From NCBI GenBank assembly GCA_025602905.1, contig JAHLKI010000035.1:124001-188000 (forward strand): a stretch of 64,000 nt of DNA, given 5' to 3'. The position numbers and the translations under genes are program-made. Under the pieces are notes generated by a model. It was given only the letters and a program-made list of their open reading frames with translations. It searched no databases and had not been told where the DNA came from. This DNA comes from Phlyctochytrium arcticum. Taxonomy: Eukaryota; Chytridiomycota; Chytridiomycetes; Chytridiales; Chytridiaceae. The stretch's first letter is position 1. Each line of letters starts with the position of its first letter. This document shows positions 3,203-54,519 of this stretch, piece after piece.

Positions 3203-3222
3203 CTCAGCGCAACCCGAGTTTT
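3203..3222 (+). repeat. Left terminal inverted repeat, copy 1
   Basis: This 20-base sequence beginning CTCAGCGCAACC is repeated inverted at 6757-6776 with one mismatch. It directly follows the 19-G run. Confidence 0.88.
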
Positions 3223-3458
3223 ACAATAAGGAGGCACAGTCATTGTAGCATTAAGTAAGCTGATCCGACCTGGCCGTTTTACTTGACGTTTTTGCAAAAC
3301 GTTCGTTCACCATCTGTCCATTTCCACGCGATCTTTTCAGCTACACACCTCAACTAAACTCTTGAAACTCACCTCAACCGGTATGGGAAGGAGCCTCTGT
3401 GACTTTATCCCAACCTTTTCTGACCGGTTCTTTAGAATTTCGACGCGCAAGCAGCTGT

Positions 3459-6371
3459 ATGCCGCCCAAGAAGAAGGTGAGATGGGCATCTTCATGATCT
3501 CAAAGACAAGCCTTTTTCCTTCCGTAGCTGTCAGCCCACTTATTCTTTCACTTCTTCTTGTTACTACCATTATAGTGCCAGGTCGCCAGCGGCCTTGTCT
3601 GGTACCACGAGGTACCCGGGAAAAAGGGCAACAAACAAGTCTATTATCCTGGATGTATCGGTTGTGGGAAAAAAAGTGCTAGTAGATTTCACAAACTGCT
3701 CTTTGCGGAACTTGATAGTCTTAAGCAGCATGGTGTAAAGCCCCTCCTTGGCCGCGGAATTGACGCTCCGTGGGCTTGTGAGGCCTGCCGCGCCCGATGG
3801 TACAGAGCGGGCCTGATTCGAGCACCCATTGTACCCATCCAAGATGCAGATGCAGATGCTGCACCAAACGAGGGCCTCAATGGTGATGGAGATGGGAGTG
3901 ACACTGGCAATGTCAATATCATCGCCGACCTCGATGCAAATGAAAATGCAGGTGCAGCTGTTACCCCAACCCCAGAAACCACTCAGGCGCCAAATGTGGA
4001 TCCCAACTCGGATGCTGAGTATGAGGAGGCTCTTCGTGAGTTGGTTGACCATCCGTCTGATGGCAACCCGTTACTCGATATTGATGGTTTCGCACAAAAG
4101 TATCGAGCATATGCCGTGAAGGCGCGCATGATCGGGTTCCGTGAGCAATACTCTCCCATCTACAATGACCGCATGAAAAGAGAGGTTGTTTTTTCCGTTT
4201 GTTACGACGGAAGCTTACGGAACCAGAAATGTGACTACATTAAACGATTCTTTGGCCACGAATTCATCACCGCGTCCTACACTGATCAGCGATTCATGTC
4301 TAGGATGAATCTGTGTTATCATCCTTCCAAGTCAATTACTCGCCAGAATGACTTGATTGTTTCAGCACAAGAACGCGTAGTGAATGACATCCTAGTGAAC
4401 AATCCCCTCTTAGTCATTACAATCGATGACTTTCACTGGTGTCAGATTCGGCCTGTCCCAGATGCGGCGAATGCCCCTGGAAAATTCACCAGCGCGAAAA
4501 CCACTGCAAATTACGCAGTAAAGCTTCATCGGGAAATGCCACCCCTCCCGCCTAACATAGGCGATGTTATGACTTCCATTCTCCAGGACTCTTCATGGAT
4601 GCCCGTATCTCTTGGCGCTCCACAAAGAGAGACGTACGCTGAGGTCCGCAACGGTGAAATCTTGTCGAAAAAGATGTACGCCTATAGTATGGCTACGAAG
4701 GCCGGATCGCAAGAGGACTTCCATATCATCGGCAGCGATGAGAATCCTTTGAAGAGCGCCCTCGATTTGCAGCCGTGTCTGGATAACATCCAGACATTTT
4801 TAGCCAAAGTTGATTATCCAGGCCAAGACAATACTTTCAGCAAGTCCGTCATTCTGGCAGGTGATTTCTACGTGTGGATGTATGCTAGCAAGCTGCTACG
4901 GTCGCCCACATATGGAGATCTCAGGCCTCACGTCTTGCCCGTACCAGACAACATGCATACGGCGCTGAATGTACAGGAGGCGGTCCTCGTTCATGGTTGG
5001 ACCATAATCCATCCCCTCTGGATCGCTGGGTATCCGGACGTGGAGAATACAGCGCCCATCAACGTGAGACCGAAGCGCAGAACGGCAATGCTGGCCCTTT
5101 CTATGACAGCTTGGCAGGAATGCCGTCAGGAACTCCTGAGTGCTTATAAGCTGGGCATAGCTAATAATCCCAAGGCAACCCCGGTCCGCAAGGCGATGGT
5201 CGAGTCAATTCTGTCCCTTTTTGAAGACCACATTCCCCTGGCAGTGGATTGTCCTTACCTGTTATCAAGTGGGGACCTTTTGCAGGTCAAAATGTGCCTT
5301 AAGCGTCTCTTCCCTTTGTTCGCTCTCTTAGGGGAAAAAAACTATGTTAACATTGTTCTTTTCCAGCTTGGTCTTCTCGAAAGGCTTCCTTCCCACCTTC
5401 CGGAGGGTATTGTTATGGCTTTTCTTTTCTCCACATTCTCTAGTGAGGACTTAGAAGTCTTTCACTCCATTCTCCGGGCTGCTATACGCTTCCAAGACAC
5501 AAATGCGCAAGTAGCCAGGAAAGCTATGCTGATCACAGCCATGAGGGGGGAGTCGGCATTGATGCAGCTTGCTGCTATGACCGAGCGGGAGTTAGCGATA
5601 CGAAGGCGGCCAGTGGCTCCGATTGAGGGAGAGTCAGTGATCAAGAAAGAGCCGGGGACCTCTGGAGAGGCCCGTAGTTCCGCCCCAACCCCTCTGGAGA
5701 AGGCTGCCGATGATGTGGTCCCCAGAATGGTTGCTTACCTCAAAGAGCTTTTTTCCAGCCTCTTTGCTTTCTCTTTCGATGTTGTTGGCCAAACTGACAA
5801 GCTTCCTTATGCTGCTGCTTTGCCGCATTATAACCTTGTTCTCAGGCCGCCTCGTTCACGTCCCATGCCATCAACGCCATTACTTTCAATTGAGACGGTC
5901 GTGAACAATTCGGGCCCGTCCAGTAGAAACAGGAATGCTGTCACAACTCCTGTCCCCTCTGGCGACAAAGAGAACCCCGCGGTCAACCCTCCCTCACCCA
6001 GCGGCGATTCAATCCCCACGGTGGTACTGGCCACTATCAGGGAGTCGCTAGTGCCTTTGCCCCTGCGCCGACAACCATATATCAATCTGGGAAACCACAT
6101 TGATATTGAAGGTTTTCAGAGTGTTTCGATGCCGGCGGAGAGGAGCCCCCTAACGGACGTTACAAATGGACAATCATCCACCAAGGCCAAGAAAATCAAA
6201 GTCCGAGAGTTCCTGAAAACCGATTGTTTGAACTACGATCTGACAGCTTGTGGGTGCAAGGTTTTCAACTGCCAATGTGCAGCTATGTACCAATGGATTG
6301 CTACCAAGTCTATCGAACACTTCTCTGAGAACATCGACAAGAGCCCCGTCCGCGGTGATGAAGGTAAATAA
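3459..6371 (+). CDS. Putative DDE-type transposase of copy 1 (937 aa, two exons)
   Basis: Exon 1 is 3459-3476 (MPPKKK), followed by a GTGAG..ATTATAG intron, then exon 2, 3576-6371. The spliced frame is uninterrupted. The N-terminus holds a paired-CxxC finger: PGCIGCGKK, then WACEACRARWY. An acidic, low-complexity linker follows. The core carries blocks shared with the 50.9-kb homologue: TIDDF (Asp290/291), AGDFYVW (Asp436), PDNMHTALNVQEA and FSSEDLEVFHSILRAAIR (Glu630). Asp-Asp-Glu spaced about 145 and 193 residues apart would suit an RNase-H-like transposase. A C-terminal Cys cluster (CGCKVFNCQCAAMY) may be a second metal site. The order resembles DUF6589-type fungal proteins, but that is a tentative memory. 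Position inside inverted repeats supports a role in mobilising the element. Confidence 0.85.
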
Positions 6372-6756
6372 GCCAGAGGTGTCGCATCAGTGCCTTGCGA
6401 GCTGTGCGCTTTTTCCTTCCAAGAACGATCACTCACCTTCTTCCAAATACTTTGTAGAATCTTCAGTTTCAACCCCAGCTTGACTGCTCGAGTGTATGTT
6501 CATCAGTTTGCCGTTTATGTCCCCCCCGGAATTTCCTTCACGCGTTTTCGACGTCGGTTTTCGAGCCATCACATCTCTTCTTACATAGTCTCAGGTAGCG
6601 GACAGCACTCCTATAAAGTCTTAGATATGTTTCCATCATTTTCAATACTCAGTTGTGTTATTTTCATATAAGGTTTGGGGCATTTTCAGGTACCCTCTCA
6701 TTCTTGCGGAACGCGTTTGGACTGTCGGACATTGCTTACGTAAATTTTTCCCGCCA

Positions 6757-6776
6757 AAAACCCGGGTTGCGCTGAG
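6757..6776 (-). repeat. Right terminal inverted repeat, copy 1
   Basis: This is the inverted partner of 3203-3222, with one mismatch in 20. It lies 385 bases after the transposase stop codon, and the segment between looks like a 3' UTR with no further gene. Confidence 0.88.
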
Positions 6777-12033: not shown

Positions 12034-12175
12034 ACGCGTCGACCGTGCAGCGACGCGTAAGCCATGTTCCTAGAATTTCCTGCGCAAGGGATGGCCCGGA
12101 TGGCCTGATCCAAGTTTCAGCCAATCACAACCTTTTCCACAGCTACGCCGCAATGGGCCCCTCGGGCTATAAAAG
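12034..12175 (+). promoter_or_regulatory. Promoter-like block: two ACGCGT boxes, CCAAT, TATAAAAG
   Basis: ACGCGT occurs at 12034-12039 and 12053-12058, CCAAT at 12121-12125 and TATAAAAG at 12168-12175. A pyrimidine-rich leader follows, with a candidate intron at about 12252-12329 (GTAAGT..TTCTCAG). ACGCGT is the core of the fungal MCB box bound by MBF-type G1/S regulators. No ATG opens a convincing gene downstream; the transcript would enter the minisatellites. The block resembles another at 25571-25715. Confidence 0.5.
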
Positions 12176-12421
12176 CCTGGCCTTCCCCCCGCTTCCCTCT
12201 TGCGTTTTTTCTTCATCTCACACACCCGCTTCCAGCTCCATTCCCCACCCTGTAAGTATACTTCACCCGTCTCATTCTGTGATTGGGTTTTCTTTGCTGA
12301 CCGCCATATCCCTCCTTTCACTTCTCAGTTTCATTCACGTCGCCGTCCTTTACCCCTATCCTTCGCCTCATCACCATCAACCAGCACCCCCCATCAACCA
12401 CAGCATCCCTCTCAACCAGCA

Positions 12422-12564
12422 CCCAGCACCCCTCCACCCGCACCCCATTCAGCACCCCCTGCAGCACCCGCTTCAGCACCCCTTTCAGCACCCCCTGCAG
12501 CACCCCCTTCAGCACCCCTTTCAGCACCCCCTTTAGCACCCCCTTCAGCACCCCATTCAGCACC
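12422..12564 (+). repeat. 12-base proline-codon minisatellite
   Basis: About ten or more units of CAGCACCCCCTT, with CATT, CTG and TTT variants, run up to 12564. On the plus strand one frame reads as SAPP/APLS repeats and another as QHPL/QHPF repeats. It sits between a promoter-like block and a second minisatellite. Confidence 0.85.
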
Positions 12565-12573
12565 TCAACGTCA

Positions 12574-13135
12574 GGACTGGATCAAGACAGGACCGGATCA
12601 GGACAGGACTGGATCAAGACAGGACTGGATCAGGACAGGACTGGATCAAGACAGGACTGGATCAAGACAGGACTGGATCAGGACAGGACTGGATCAAGAC
12701 AGGACTGGATCAGGACAGGACTGGATCAAGACACGACTGGATCAGGACAGGACTGGATCAAGACAGGACTGGATCAGGACAGGACTGGATCAAGACAGGA
12801 CTGGATCAAGACAGGACTGGATCAAGACAGGACTGGATCAGGACAGGACTGGATCAAGACAGGACTGGATCAGGACTGGACTGGATCAAGACAGGACTTG
12901 ATCAGGACAGGACTGGATCAAGACAGGACTGGATCAGGACAGGACTGGATCAAGACAGGACTGGATCAGGACAGGACTGGATCAGGACAGGACTGGATCA
13001 GGACAGGACTGGATCAGGATAGGACTGGATCAGGATAGGACTGGATCAGGACAGGACTGGATCAGGACAGGACTGGATCAAGGCAGGACTGGATCAAGGC
13101 AGGACTGGATCGGGACAGGACTGGATCAGGACTGG
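12574..13135 (+). repeat. 16-base minisatellite, about 35 units
   Basis: The unit is GGACTGGATCAAGACA, alternating with GGACTGGATCAGGACA. Some units carry GGATAG or AAGGCAGG variants toward the right end. Since 16 is not a multiple of 3, three units give one 16-residue period (GLDQDRTGSRQDWIKT), and all three plus frames of the perfect unit are free of stops. The reverse strand has TGA in each cycle. A single T variant near 12899 introduces a stop. Expansion is likely recent, as units are near identical. Confidence 0.95.
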
Positions 13136-14005: not shown

Positions 14006-16453
14006 CTACCATCCATTAGGATCCCTCCATCCATTCTCAATTTGTTTGGCTTCATATTTGGAATGTGCTGGAGTTTTGTCAGTGACGGTGGGAGCCCGGG
14101 ATAACGCCGAGGACGCATAATCGGCCACATCAAAGCTGCTTTCGGGAGTATCCAGGATGTTTTGGTTGAGAGTGTACCGGCCGGGGGATTTAGCCGCATA
14201 TGTATAGTTTGGGTTGTAGGATTTGGCGGGTGCGGGGGCGTAGCGGCTGGTATTGCCGACATGGGGTAAAGGGCTGCGAGGGGGTGGTGCTTGGGGTGGG
14301 GGTGAGTAAACTTGATTGGTGACGGCGACGGCGGTGGCCGTGGTGGGATGTATGGTTGTGACAGCCATGTCGCCGCGATGGATTCTGGGACGGCTGCTGC
14401 TTGATCCCGCTTGTGGGTAATAACGAGGCTCCTCCTGGTAATATCTGCCCGAGCTCGTAGCGTCAGGACTGCCATAGGCGACATCTTGTGGTGGATAGGT
14501 TTGTTCTGGTGGTGAGCGTGATAGAGCGGCAGCCTGCTGCCGGAGCTCGTTGTAAGCCGGTCGGTCATAAGACCGATTTTCCGACGGAAAGTAGCCCTCG
14601 TTCCCGTACGCCCGTGGAGACATCGCTCCATGAGGTAAGCTGTGTGAATGAACGTATGGGTTGGTTTCGCCCGGCGAACGGGGGGCCGGGGAGGTGGCGT
14701 AATATTTTTGGCTGCCGCTAGTGCCTGCACTAGTCTTGCCTGGCGGATAGAACAGGTCACCTCTGGGAGACGCTGGCCCCGCACTGGCTCGGTATGCGCC
14801 CTTTGTCAATGTAGTGGTCCGCACGTTTAGGGAAACATCGTCTGTGACATCCTCGAAAACTGGCTTGGAACGGCCCCGACACCTTAAAAACAAGGTACCA
14901 AAAGTCGTGTTGATCCAAGTTGCCCTGGATGTACACAAAATGATCCATCCAAGAATCCCCAGCGCAGCTACGACATAGTCGCGAAATCCAGGGCGTGAAT
15001 CCTCGGGGGCAAACCTTCCTACCGAAAGAGCACGAACTTGCTGATAGTTTGAGGCAACTGTGGCAAGGATATAGAGGGCCGTAATGCCCAATACTCGCAA
15101 ACATAATTGCGCTGTAATCCGAGATTGCGCGCGATCTACCTTGGTTCCCCCCACCACGTTGTCAGTGGATGAACCGGTGCTTCGAGTCGCCGAAAGGAAC
15201 GCTCGGCGTTGCTTCCACAGCGCAAAGGCTGTGTGAAGTCCCAAAATAGTTGCCCCGATCACAAAGAAAAAGGCGAATGGAATAGTAGACATGGCCAAAG
15301 TGTTGATGGGGTAAAGATATGTGCAGTACATGATGTGCGGGGCAAAACCCGGTTGTACGTTGGAAGGCGCGTCCAACGAAACGGGGTTGGCACGGAGTAA
15401 GATGATGACAAGTGGAATGGCGGGTAAGAGAAGTGCAAAGGGCGCATTCCATTTCCAGCGTGTGGATTCTGACGCATTCCTCAATCGACCTTTTACCACA
15501 GCGTACCAGGCATCCAGCGTCATGAAAAACGGCCAAATGTATGAAGACATGGCCAGGTAAGTCATAATCAGTGTCTGAAGTCGGCAAAAGTCGGTGTTGA
15601 AGGCGCGCGCGATGTTGAGTTTAAACTTGATGTTGCCCACGGCAACCACGATGATGATTGCGATCCAGGTGAGTGCCCAGGAAACCGTGGCGTAATTGCG
15701 CCGCATTCGACTGAATGTGAGCGCGAGATCCAAGAATGCAATGAATGACAAGCCAAACAGGATGCTTAGAATGAGCTTTTCAACTGGGATTCCATCTTCT
15801 GGGAACACTTCACCAGGCGCTGCAACCGTGCCCCGAGACGTCACTTGGGTAGGCAATACCTCCAATGGACTGCTTGGTTGCGCTGCACCCAGACAGTTTG
15901 TTGTTGGATAGGGCACCGTCTTGCCAGTCACATTCATAGAGGTGCAATCGGAAAGCAGATCTTCAGTGTGCAAAATAGCAAAAGTAGCAGCACATGCCTC
16001 AACGGCAAATTTACAGGTATTTTCGCACGGAAAGATGGTTACGCCTGTAACATGTCATGTAAATATCAAAGTACTGTGAGCACAAACATCACGAATGAAC
16101 TTACCATTTGCGCAAGATGGGAATGCAGCTGAGCAATACAATTGCCTGAGTTGTCCGTAGCAAGCGGGAGCAATCGTTCGCAGCTGTTCTATTGACTTGA
16201 ATGTTTGTTGCAGCTTTTCTTCGGCTGCACTGATGGCAGTTGGCGGCGTGGCGACCTGATAGTTGACGCCGACCGCGGAGCAAGCAGTTCCTGAATAGGG
16301 CGTAGGCGAGCATGATTGTGCTGCTGCCAACGGTATAGTGCTAAAGGCTGCCAGCGCCAAAAGTCCTATTGTAGTGGGAGAGAATGTTGCCGGTTGTCGT
16401 TGGGAATGCCGCGACCGGCAGTCTAATGATGGACCTGCCTCTTGAAGACTCAT
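14006..16453 (-). CDS. Frizzled-like seven-transmembrane receptor, 795 aa
   Basis: Exon 1 is 16453-16105 and exon 2 is 16044-14006, joined over a GTAAGTTC..TTACAG intron. The N-terminus has a hydrophobic signal-like segment (IGLLALAAFSTIPLAAAQ). A cysteine-rich domain follows, with CYGQLRQLYCSAAFPSC, then IFPCENTCKFAVEACA, then SDCTSM: the Frizzled CRD layout. From about residue 207 there are seven hydrophobic helices, for example LILSILFGLSFIAFLDLALTF and IWPFFMTLDAWYAVV. The tail of about 290 residues is rich in Pro, Ser and Tyr. The metazoan KTxxxW Dishevelled-binding motif is not seen. Fungal Frizzled-like receptors are known, but their ligands are mostly undefined. An in-frame upstream start (16771) would add 106 residues; I prefer 16453 because it puts the signal segment near the N-terminus. 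Confidence 0.88.
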
Positions 16454-50472: not shown

Positions 50473-50480
50473 GTTGCGTG
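50473..50480 (+). repeat. 8-base target-site duplication, left
   Basis: GTTGCGTG lies directly outside the left inverted repeat of copy 2 and is repeated directly outside the right one at 54512-54519. Confidence 0.92.
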
Positions 50481-50501
50481 CCCAGCGCACGGGTCCCATT
50501 T
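50481..50501 (+). repeat. Left terminal inverted repeat, copy 2
   Basis: The 21 bases starting CCCAGCGCACGG are the exact reverse complement of 54491-54511. Confidence 0.95.
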
Positions 50502-50888
50502 TAGGCCTAATCAACCCACCAAATTAGGAACGTGCTTGCGCAGCTTTGCTGATGTAATCAGAGCTCCGGCGTGTCCGTGAAATACGCGTTGGAAAACCTA
50601 GTATAATTGCAAACCGTCAATAAAAATGCGCTCCTGCATCTCGAAAGGCGGGGTGGTGTATATTACTTTGAAGTGGCTTATGGGTTGGGCCGTTTTGTGT
50701 AGCGATGATAACAGTTAAGTGCAGATTTCTGATGGTGATTTCGCTGTTAACTCCCCCCACTTCGAGGTTCCCCCAATCGAAGGATTCGCGTTGCATCAGT
50801 ACGGGGACGCTTGGATCTCGTCAAGATACCTATCAACTCCCCCTGTTGACAGCCTAAGACGATTCCATCCGAGCCCACGCAACTTATA

Positions 50889-53800
50889 ATGACTGACAGC
50901 ACCCATAGTAATCAGTCTTCTGGAGGCCGTTCTCAGAACACCGGTCGATTTGTCGGAGCATTTGATAGCCCAGTTAGCAAGAAGAAATCAGGCATCAAAT
51001 ATACTTGCATTACTTGCAGGACAACCAAGCCCTCTGCCCGATACTACCATCGCAGTTTGGGACTTCTCGCGCATCTCGTAGCCAACAATGTTGATTTTCA
51101 TTTCGACACAAATGCCGGCCACAAAAATGCTACTTTCTGCAAGAAATGTTGGTCACATTTAAACCGCAAATACCCACATCCCCTTTTTTTAAGCACCCAA
51201 CAGGAGGACAATACCCAAGCTGTTGCTGTTGGCAGCAGTAGCACCGCGACGCCCGTCAGGCCCACTGCTACTATGACTATACCCGGAACGCCTGTACCTG
51301 CCGCAACAACTATAACCGTCACGCTCACCACACCCGTCAGCCCTGTACCCAACCCTCTCTTTATCACTCCTGCACGCGTAACGCCTGTTTCTGTCGGTGG
51401 GTCGCTTACATACTCTACACCAACTTTCGCGTCGCCCGTACCCATCTCGTCTGTGGTCTCGCCTACGCCTGCACGCAAGCTGCTTTTTGGCACCATTGAA
51501 GTTGATGTTGAAGAGACCGTTCAGCCGGTTTTGAAGGATACTCTCAAGTTTAGGGCGGGAGTATTACAACTACTGCACAAAAAGTGCAAACTTAAGATGC
51601 CCTTCACATCCGACCTCGACGCCTTCATTGAGCACTTAGACAGCTGTGAACAGCTCGCCACCAAAACCGCTGTTGACCTCGGTTTGTCAGGTATGTAGAT
51701 CTATTTTGATTTGGATATATTAGATAGCTAATTTCCTTTTGATAGCCACCACATGGAAACAAACAGAGTCCGAGAGAAGAAGACGTATCATTGCTTCCAT
51801 TGCTGTACAGAAGGCGGCATTCCTTCATCCGCACATCAATTTCGTGAAGGATGTGGTGTTGTCTACGACTCTGGGAATATCTGACTCTAGTAGGAAGGTT
51901 CTTTCGTCATTCAACTTGAGCTATAGCCTCGACATTGCGGAGCAGAAAATGAAGGCCGCCAATGAAAGGGCGTACAAAGAGTTGACTGAGCGGATGGCCA
52001 GCGGAACGGAAGTGCCAGTCGTGAAGATGGACGACTTTAATAGGGTTTCGGTTCATGGAACTCCCGGCTCAGCCAACTCCGGGAAGTTTAGCACTGTCCA
52101 TACGCAAGCTAATTTGGCTGTCAAGTTCTTTCCCAAAGGGGATTCGTCCAAGGATGAAGAGAATGGATTCGTACGGCGGGCTTTACCCTTGCCACTTCTG
52201 GACAAGCCCCACATCGACTTTAGCTCCCTGAAGACTGATAAGGACAAAAAGACCTTTGTCGGTGCGCCGTTCCTGAGCCAAGCAGTTACCGATGTGATTG
52301 TTAAGGAAACTTACGGTGAAAAGTTGATTACCAAGGACCAATCAAACAACTTTCGCCAGCCGTACTGTTTTGACATGTCCACTAGTGCTGCTGAACTAAA
52401 GCAGTTCCACGTTTTCGACGCGATGCCCAATCGCATGAAGTCAGCGGAGGATTTGCGCTCTTTAATGGTTTCCGTCAAAAAATTTATTGAACACTACAAG
52501 GATGGTGCTATCTGGATAACTGGCGACTTTTATGTTTGGCGTAACGTGATGAAGATGCTCTGGGCGCATAGTCGAACCCCATTACCTACGGATCATCTGT
52601 ATCTGAGAGTTGTTCTGTGTCCATGGCCTGATGCCATGCATATAGCACTGAACGCGCAGCAGGGTAAGCTCTGTATCATTTACGTTTCACGGCAAGGCAA
52701 TATACTTACTGTATTTCAGCTTTGCTGCAATGGAACTTCAATGTCTTCATGCCCATTTGGAGCGCCGCATTCCCCGATTTCGCGGTTACTCTAGTAAAGC
52801 TGCGACCTGTAAGGCGCATGATGCTGCTGACTATGATGTTCCTGTCCTGGAAAAAGTGCCGAGTCCAAGTGTTGGATTGGGTGAAGCAGCAAACGGATCT
52901 ACCTGAGTTTCAACGTGATATAGTGGAGTCTCTAGTCCGCCTTTTTGATGAAGAACTGCCACTTGTTCTGGATGCGGCAACGGCTATGGCCAGCGGAGAT
53001 GTTATGCTTTACAAGGAGGTGTTGCACAGACTTTTGCCGTTGTTCATTCGCTACCGCAAAAAGAACTATGTCACGATTGTTCTCCACATACTTTCTGCTA
53101 TTCAGGAAATGGAGGCTGGAGGAGACCCCGAAATTATTGCTGCGCTTTATAGTCAACTCCCTTTGGCAAGTTCGGAGGACTTGGAAGTATTTCACTCCCT
53201 GCTTCGTGCATGCATTCGTCCCTTTGATTCTCACGGCCGTGCTGTTATGACTACCCTCTACTTGTCATCCAATAAGAACCTGAGTGCGAGATCATTCCTG
53301 GCCCAAGTCGCGAAACAAAAAGCACTAGATAGGAGAAAGAGGCTGCCATGGACTAAATATATGAACAGCTTCAAGCTTCAGCCACGGCAGCCCGTACAAA
53401 CCAAACGTACGCAATTCTACAATGCCCATCTCAACGTGATGGCTGCCGCCCTCACGACTATGTTCCGCAAACTCATTGCCAACTCGCCAAACATCATCAT
53501 CCAAGGAGAAATGATGTTTACCCATTCTGCAACTGGTACTAAAGTTCGTGGGTATCAGGTACGATACAAAGTTGCACCGCCATCAGCAACCACTTCCATC
53601 GCAACGACCGCTGAACCGCCAAAAAAGAAGCGGAAGAAAGCCACCAAAATTTCCCAATTCACCGCTGCAAATATCGGCCCTGAAACAATCGTGACATTCT
53701 CAGAGCGTTTGCTACCACTGACTTTGTGGGGGGACAAAAAGGTTGCTTTGAATGTCCACACGCGTATTGACCAGTTTGCTGCCGTTGAAACGACGCGACC

Positions 53801-54077
53801 GCGGCCCCCTCTACGGGATATTACCAACCAAGCCTTGAATCCAGTCGACGTCGCTCAGCAAAACACCAAGTTTTACATCAAGACATCGAAACTTGAAAAG
53901 CCGCCATCTTCTATTTGCTCATGTCCCATTCTTGATCAAACTATTTGCCCTCATCTCAGGAGACTAATTACCGAGAACGAATTCATCTGGTGGATGTACA
54001 ATATGGCCACCCCACTAAAAGAAGATGACTTCGTAAGAGACGAAGAAGATGAAGAAATTACTGAGGAGCTGTGGTAA
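50889..54077 (+). CDS. Putative DDE-type transposase of copy 2 (1025 aa, three exons)
   Basis: Exons are 50889-51690, 51746-52663 and 52720-54077; phases close. The N-terminus holds YTCITCRTTK and TFCKKCWSHL, a paired-CxxC finger in the same place as in the copy 1 protein. A Thr/Pro/Val-rich linker follows, with repeated TPV units. The core blocks are KMDDF (Asp363/364), ITGDFYVW (Asp528), PDAMHIALNAQQA, then LPLFIRYRKKNYVTIVLH and ASSEDLEVFHSLLRACIR (Glu726). A basic PPKKKRKKA stretch looks like a nuclear signal. A C-terminal Cys/His cluster (ICSCPILDQTICPHLRRL) may bind metal. Identity with the copy 1 protein is confined to the core blocks, so the two are old relatives. The role as transposase is inferred from position and conserved acidic residues. 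Confidence 0.88.
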
Positions 54078-54490
54078 GTAACGCATGTCAACTTGCGACT
54101 TCTTCATCTTACTTACTTGAAAGCAGATCTGATATGTATCAACCGCCAGAACCGCCCCACCAAATGAGTGCTGCTTGTGTCAACTCCCCAAGAACTATAG
54201 TAAGTATAAGATATCCAATTTTGAAGCGATTCCGTCCGAGCCCAAGGCCCCTACCGTGCAATATACACATCCTCGTTACTCTTCTTCAATCGAAAATGCC
54301 GTAGAATAGGCTAGTTTCGTTAGTATACCCTGTCTTTTTTTCTATATACCTCAGCTTGGATACGTTTGGAACGAAATGAGTAATATCGGGACGCTTGTTC
54401 GAGGGGTTTTTATTAGTTCTCTTCCGCCCAAGAAGAATCCCTGGGGAAAGAATCTGCGGGTGGAGGTGGCTGTGCAGTGCATAATGACAG

Positions 54491-54511
54491 AAATGGGACC
54501 CGTGCGCTGGG
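54491..54511 (-). repeat. Right terminal inverted repeat, copy 2
   Basis: This is the exact inverted partner of 50481-50501. About 410 bases separate it from the transposase stop. Confidence 0.95.
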
Positions 54512-54519
54512 GTTGCGTG
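54512..54519 (+). repeat. 8-base target-site duplication, right
   Basis: GTTGCGTG, identical to 50473-50480. Confidence 0.92.

Follow-up and report, generated by a model that had tools for sequence, protein, structure and literature searches.

The 64,000-nucleotide stretch of Phlyctochytrium arcticum DNA analysed here (the window; contig JAHLKI010000035.1, positions 124,001 to 188,000) contains a gene enclosed by two inverted repeats, and the question it raises is whether this is a complete DNA transposon and, if so, to which superfamily it belongs. A first-pass annotation, made from the sequence alone, had called it a complete element and considered that its superfamily might be undescribed. 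For practical purposes there is no doubt that the window element is a transposon. Assigning it to an undescribed superfamily is a tentative reading, and is weighed below against the described groups that share some of its characters.

Ends, boundaries and copies of the window element

The element spans 50481-54511 (4,031 bp). Its ends and flanks are as follows.

50473-50480, no strand: left target-site duplication, GTTGCGTG; duplications of the same length are found at other copies
50481-50501, + strand: left terminal inverted repeat, CCCAGCGCACGGGTCCCATTT; the same two ends are present in five family-A copies
54491-54511, - strand: right terminal inverted repeat, the exact complement of the left arm
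54512-54519, no strand: right target-site duplication, GTTGCGTG; a perfect 8-bp match to the left copy

The two arms are inverted, 21 nt long and 100% complementary, and GTTGCGTG is present on both sides, which bears out the 21-base repeats and 8-base duplication of the first-pass annotation. By rough estimate, the chance of a 21-bp inverted pair lying within 6 kb in 64 kb of DNA is ~9e-5, and that of an 8-bp match between flanks is 1.5e-5.

The assembly that contains the window (91 contigs, 31.5 Mb) was searched at the DNA level; the best candidates were scored, and the counts are lower bounds. Besides the window element, full-length copies were found on contigs C19, C39 and C13. The four copies (family A) are 99.5-99.9% identical, with one 9-bp indel and, between any two, 6-10 base differences in ~4,030. 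At least one copy broken by insertions (C26) and at least one truncated copy (C39) were also present, together with many further places having 65-86% DNA identity to the window element. Because the full-length copies on C19, C39 and C13 start and stop at identical bases, the boundaries of the window element are fixed, to the base as had been claimed. Each full-length copy carries a private, perfect 8-bp duplication: GTTGCGTG in the window, CGTGACAA at C19, GTCTGGCG at C39 and GGCTGCGT at C13. The search for further copies with 8-base duplications, which had been proposed as a check, thus yielded three more full-length elements at unrelated sites. In the broken C26 copy the duplication is CAGTAACT/CGGTAACT, matching at 7 of 8 positions. 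The reading frame is open in three of the four full-length copies; the C19 copy has an early stop.

Two other insertions, one of 3.2 kb and one of 330 bp, interrupt the C26 copy (locus L009, 2411-5612 and 7932-8261). The larger has a terminal 39-nt hairpin-like repeat and a 344-codon stop-to-stop frame.

Nothing was found in favour of a host gene lying by chance between inverted repeats, or of a segmental duplication. What recurs from copy to copy is the element, its surroundings being different each time, and most copies have their own duplication, so the probability of this explanation is negligible. Flanks of 0.9-2.3 kb per side were mutually unmatched in 12 copies (four full-length A, one interrupted A and seven copies of the sister family B described below). 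On its right side, a C33 copy has flanking DNA with a 72% match close to the truncated copy on C39, and the right flank of the C13 copy contains a deletion derivative. At the window copy, each 400-bp flank matches itself alone in the assembly.

Sister family and deletion derivatives

Family B is 72% identical to family A and has the ends CCCAGCGCACGGGTTCCATTT. Both flanks were read for nine copies (a tenth, C36, was read at one end), and seven of the nine have perfect private 8-bp duplications; in one of these seven the two ends lie 31 kb apart. An intact 1,000-aa gene is present in five of the seven copies examined, early stops being found in those on C3 and C4. The remaining two copies, both on C5 and inverted with respect to each other (G000:C5:1055840-1059616 and G000:C5:1078140-1082063), are flanked by TGTCCAGA/TATCACAC and TATCACAC/TGTCCAGA; in one of them the 3' inverted repeat carries a small deletion. 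Because the 8-bp duplications are reciprocally swapped, the pair is read as the outcome of two normal insertions followed by recombination between them, which inverted the intervening ~18.5 kb.

Short elements of 1.43-1.46 kb with the ends CCCAGCGCACAACTGCCTTTT were also found. The one on C13 matches both end regions of family D/E (74-80% identity) and not the D/E middle. The short elements are therefore taken as internally deleted derivatives, on a comparison made for the C13 element alone. Five derivatives were read at both ends (C32, not read at both, was excluded) and four of them have perfect duplications; in the fifth, on C15, the second CCTTGCAA is displaced 7 bp outward.

The C13 derivative (G000:C13:774542-775996; locus L004, 5551-7005) adjoins the family-A copy, and the 8-bp targets of the two overlap by 6 bp, possibly a sign that they prefer similar targets. 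A weak T/A bias was seen at positions 4/5 among 17 pooled targets. Copies of family D lie less than 3 kb from contig ends on C18, C10 and C13 (including G000:C13:853008-854357; loci L023 and L024) and are perhaps subtelomeric.

A second, divergent element in the window

Listing of the open frames of the window revealed a second element, absent from the first-pass finding and assigned here to family G.

3203-6776, + strand: divergent element of family G with ends CTCAGCGCAACCCGAGTTTT and AAAACCCGGGTTGCGCTGAG, paired at 19 of 20 positions; end set by the C3 copy
3576-6371, + strand: 931-codon open frame, start codon not fixed, with the same motifs as the main transposase

The frame and the main transposase share 27% identity across an alignment of 713 columns (E 3e-59). 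A protein search with it found at least 48 further places in the genome (the best 49 of 277 candidates were taken) at 44-99% identity, and among the places listed at least 15 span nearly the whole frame without a stop. An 18-base end motif of family G occurs 114 times in the genome with at most 2 mismatches, and the count for the reversed control is 0. Three G copies were read at both ends. The end was placed at CTCAG because CTGCACAG flanks the C3 copy on both sides; the window copy adjoins a run of 19 G. Families A, B and G and the deletion derivatives have the ends 5'-CYCAGCGCA in common.

In all, both flanks were read for 22 elements. The adjacent 8-bp duplication is perfect in 16 of them (A, 4/5; B, 7/9; deletion derivatives, 4/5; G, 1/3), swapped by inversion in two, matching at 7 of 8 positions in one, displaced by 7 bp in one and absent from two.

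The gene and its predicted transposase

The gene and the motifs of its product in the window element are as follows.

50889-51690, + strand: exon 1, start ATG at 50889
51691-51745, + strand: intron 1, GTATGT...GATAG (GT..AG)
51746-52663, + strand: exon 2
52664-52719, + strand: intron 2 (GT..AG), at a position common to relatives B, C, D and E
52720-54077, + strand: exon 3, including the stop TAA at 54075-54077
51006-51149, + strand: N-terminal CxxC...CxxC (C40, C43, C84, C87), read from the sequence and the A/B alignment; no Pfam match
52030-52035, + strand: candidate first catalytic Asp, D363/D364 in KMDDFNRV; shared by the second element and by the pieces of families A, B, C, E and F
52525-52527, + strand: candidate second catalytic Asp, D528 in ITGDFYVW; retained in families A-E and the second element
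53175-53186, + strand: candidate catalytic Glu, E726-D727-L-E729 in SSEDLEVFHSLLR; kept in A-F and the second element
53916-53954, + strand: C-terminal CxCx7CxH, SWIM-finger-like, read from the sequence and not called by Pfam

The gene has two introns and a product of 1,025 aa, and the single intact spliced gene of the first-pass annotation was correct, coordinates and protein length included. A model with a third intron, whose 1,026-aa product departs from this one at its final residue alone, was set aside because the plain stop at 54075-54077 fits. This 1,026-aa version was the query in the Pfam scan of the window protein, in one genome search for elements and in the family alignment.

Two CxxC pairs are present in the aligned or compared sequences of family A, family B and the second window element. 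They are probably zinc-binding and perhaps form a DNA-binding domain. Six blocks are common to families A-F, where the pieces reach, and to the second element: [MIL]DDF, GD[FY]YVW, PDxMHxALN, RPxRR, [KR]NYVxI[VI] and SSEDLEVFHSxxRA. They persist down to 27% protein identity, and the SSEDLEVFHSLLR block is the longest stretch fully conserved throughout families A-F and the second element. The family D piece begins downstream of the D363/D364 position, and the family F copy has VVGDYYVW at the D528 block, in another frame. The order and spacing of D363/D364, D528 and E726 or E729 are compatible with an aspartate-aspartate-glutamate (DDE) core; the ~200 residues between D528 and the Glu are mostly helical in low-confidence models. 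The conservation of these acidic motifs is suggestive of a DDE transposase, in which the residues named would be the catalytic ones. The C-terminal CxCx7CxH is kept in A, B and C, with variant forms in D and the second element, and its spacing is that of a SWIM finger.

These results suggest that the window element is very probably an intact, autonomous and recently active class II (cut-and-paste) DNA transposon encoding a 1,025-aa transposase. What was observed is the ends, the duplications, the copies at unrelated sites, the intact genes, the conserved motifs and the internally deleted derivatives with related ends. A cut-and-paste rather than another DDE route, and activity at the present day, are inferred. 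The N-terminal zinc-binding domain would bind the element ends, and a split RNase-H-like DDE core would be interrupted, after the second Asp and before the Glu, by a mostly helical insertion, the C-terminal Cys/His finger completing the protein. The enzyme would pair two CYCAGCGCA ends and then excise the element; insertion through staggered cuts 8 bp apart would leave the 8-bp duplication. The mechanistic class, a cut-and-paste transposon, is a familiar one and not a new kind of system.

Several results weigh against this reading. No empty site was seen in the same assembly, where the window flanks are unique. Two of the three G copies read at both ends, the window copy and the C50 copy, are without a target duplication. 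The predicted folds of exon 3 alone and of the core of the second element (with the window exons as extra rows) had a mean predicted local distance difference test score (pLDDT) of 39.8 and 37.7, respectively, both below usable confidence. When the second model was searched against the folds of the PDB, none of the 160 matches at E<=10 reached E<=0.001. That model places strands and helices where a DDE core would need them, at a confidence too low for proof.

Relation to known superfamilies

Element proteins were scanned against Pfam-A at E<=10, a setting at which the HMMER filters drop most matches above ~0.1. The only repeatable match was to DUF6589 (PF20231), a family of unknown function. 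The window protein matched at E 5e-5 and 22.6 bits, with residues 629-700 on profile positions 251-322, that is ~70 of 410 profile positions; the curated cut-off is 27 bits and every score was below it. Five of the seven aligned rows matched at E<=10, those of families C, D and F on profile positions 269-325 (E 0.02-0.055, 12.6-14.1 bits). The independent relatives A, C, D and F are thus placed consistently, all within positions 251-325. The second window element, in contrast, had no Pfam-A match, DUF6589 included. Over the genome, the PF20231 profile found four family-A places, none over the cut-off. COBRA1 and INTS7_C gave weak Pfam matches at chance level. The Pfam part of the profile check proposed for the 1025-residue protein therefore returned no transposase, and its only family match was to DUF6589 below the cut-off.

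Other searches gave no closer relative. Nothing better than E 0.05 was found for the element proteins in NCBIfam and PHROGs, nothing at E<=10 in the PDB sequences with a seven-row profile, and no match in the window with Rfam. Two calmodulins in the PDB, matched by a three-row core profile at E 0.93, were taken as chance. No relative was found by tblastn on viral contigs (23 and 34 pattern matches) or on contigs of prokaryote genomes (103 pattern matches).

A divergent branch of hAT would account for the 8-bp duplications, for CAG near the ends (at positions 3-5) and for a helical insertion in the catalytic core, and hAT elements also have short inverted repeats and a single transposase gene. 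The duplication length is usual for hAT in the accessible text of PMC12730594. No hAT family of Pfam was reported for the element proteins, however, and hATs are detectable in this genome, since PF05699 (the hAT dimerisation domain) finds 18 places, 16 of them over the cut-off; none overlaps the element places listed. The C-terminal Cys/His finger also counts against hAT. Targets of hAT elements are biased to nTnnnnAn; the 17 target sites, pooled on both strands, had T at position 2 in 6/34 and no T2/A7 bias. We consider membership in hAT improbable.

Membership of the KDZ (Kyakuja/Dileera/Zisupton) group as a divergent member is likewise quite unlikely. The C-terminal SWIM-like CxCx7CxH is reminiscent of Zisupton, and both groups occur in fungi and have a Cys-rich domain. 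The accessible parts of the literature give 8-bp duplications for Zisupton and Dileera (PMC12730594) and for Cryptococcus KDZ1 (PMC12810828), as found here. The KDZ domain PF18758 was not reported in the Pfam scans of the element proteins. Over the genome it had no match, but no control matched either, so this result is weak. The elements described here are also smaller and their ends short: 3.6-4.0 kb with inverted repeats of ~20 bp, whereas in the text available of PMC12810828 the KDZ elements of Cryptococcus, three in number, measure 9-11 kb and have repeats of 139-241 bp.

A further alternative is a described superfamily other than these that also makes 8-bp duplications (P element, Merlin or Novosib), or a family already catalogued in Repbase or Dfam; we rate it clearly below an even chance, though above hAT or KDZ. 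P, Merlin and Novosib have duplications of 8-9 bp. Against this, Pfam-A reports only DUF6589 and the two chance-level families for the element proteins, and no PDB chain was better than E 0.93 against the core profile. For P element, Merlin, MULE and CACTA, no Pfam domain was reported in the Pfam-A scans, which could miss far relatives.

Comparison was also made with recently described fungal transposons. In the accessible portions of PMC12810828 and PMC12730594, CNEST/ESTA and the CMC group mostly end in CA..TG and duplicate TA or 2-5 bp of the target, in contrast to 8 bp and CYCAGCGCA here. The same portions give duplications of 7 bp for Kyakuja and hAT7, 4-8 bp for KDZ2/3, 6 bp for IS3EU and 2-5 bp for CMC-type groups and PHISTA, and PMC12810828 states that CNEST had no Repbase match when discovered. 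None of the fungal superfamilies in these portions has ends or proteins like those of the present elements. The term DUF6589 was not found in literature text searches, which miss most subscription papers and Repbase Reports, and the part of PMC10799480 that is available contains no term starting with DUF. When the literature text was searched for the end motifs, no transposon title was among the matches listed, a result that says little in either direction.

The first-pass annotation had found none of the signatures of hAT, P, Merlin, MULE, CACTA or KDZ in the protein. This stands as far as Pfam reaches, the genome search for KDZ being weak. Its call of a complete DNA transposon is upheld by copies at unrelated sites, private duplications and intact genes. 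Its suggestion of an undescribed superfamily is neither proven nor excluded, given the weak tie to DUF6589. Our own reading, held at somewhat below an even chance, is that both elements of the window belong to an undescribed superfamily of eukaryotic DNA transposons, as judged against Pfam-A and published descriptions and not against Repbase or Dfam entries. Such a superfamily would be defined by 5'-CYCAGCGCA ends, 8-bp duplications, a length of 3.6-4.0 kb and a transposase with CxxC..CxxC, D-D-E and a C-terminal finger; within one genome it would have radiated into no fewer than six families (A, B, C, D/E, F and G), and the uncharacterised DUF6589 proteins would be related transposases.

If this is true, one superfamily would be added to the 24 eukaryotic ones that the accessible text of PMC12730594 gives for Repbase, and DUF6589 would gain a testable function, that of a transposase. 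Annotators could then recognise such genes as mobile DNA and not as hypothetical host proteins, and several near-identical intact copies would be at hand for a bench assay.

Other features of the window

Judged by eye, the short introns and the gene content point to a fungus as the likely source. Two further features were noted in the same way. A long in-frame tandem repeat of the GLDQDRTGSRQDWI type lies at 12173-13038, beside repeats rich in Ser/Thr/Pro/Ala, and a frame at 14006-16054 resembles a Frizzled-type seven-helix receptor.

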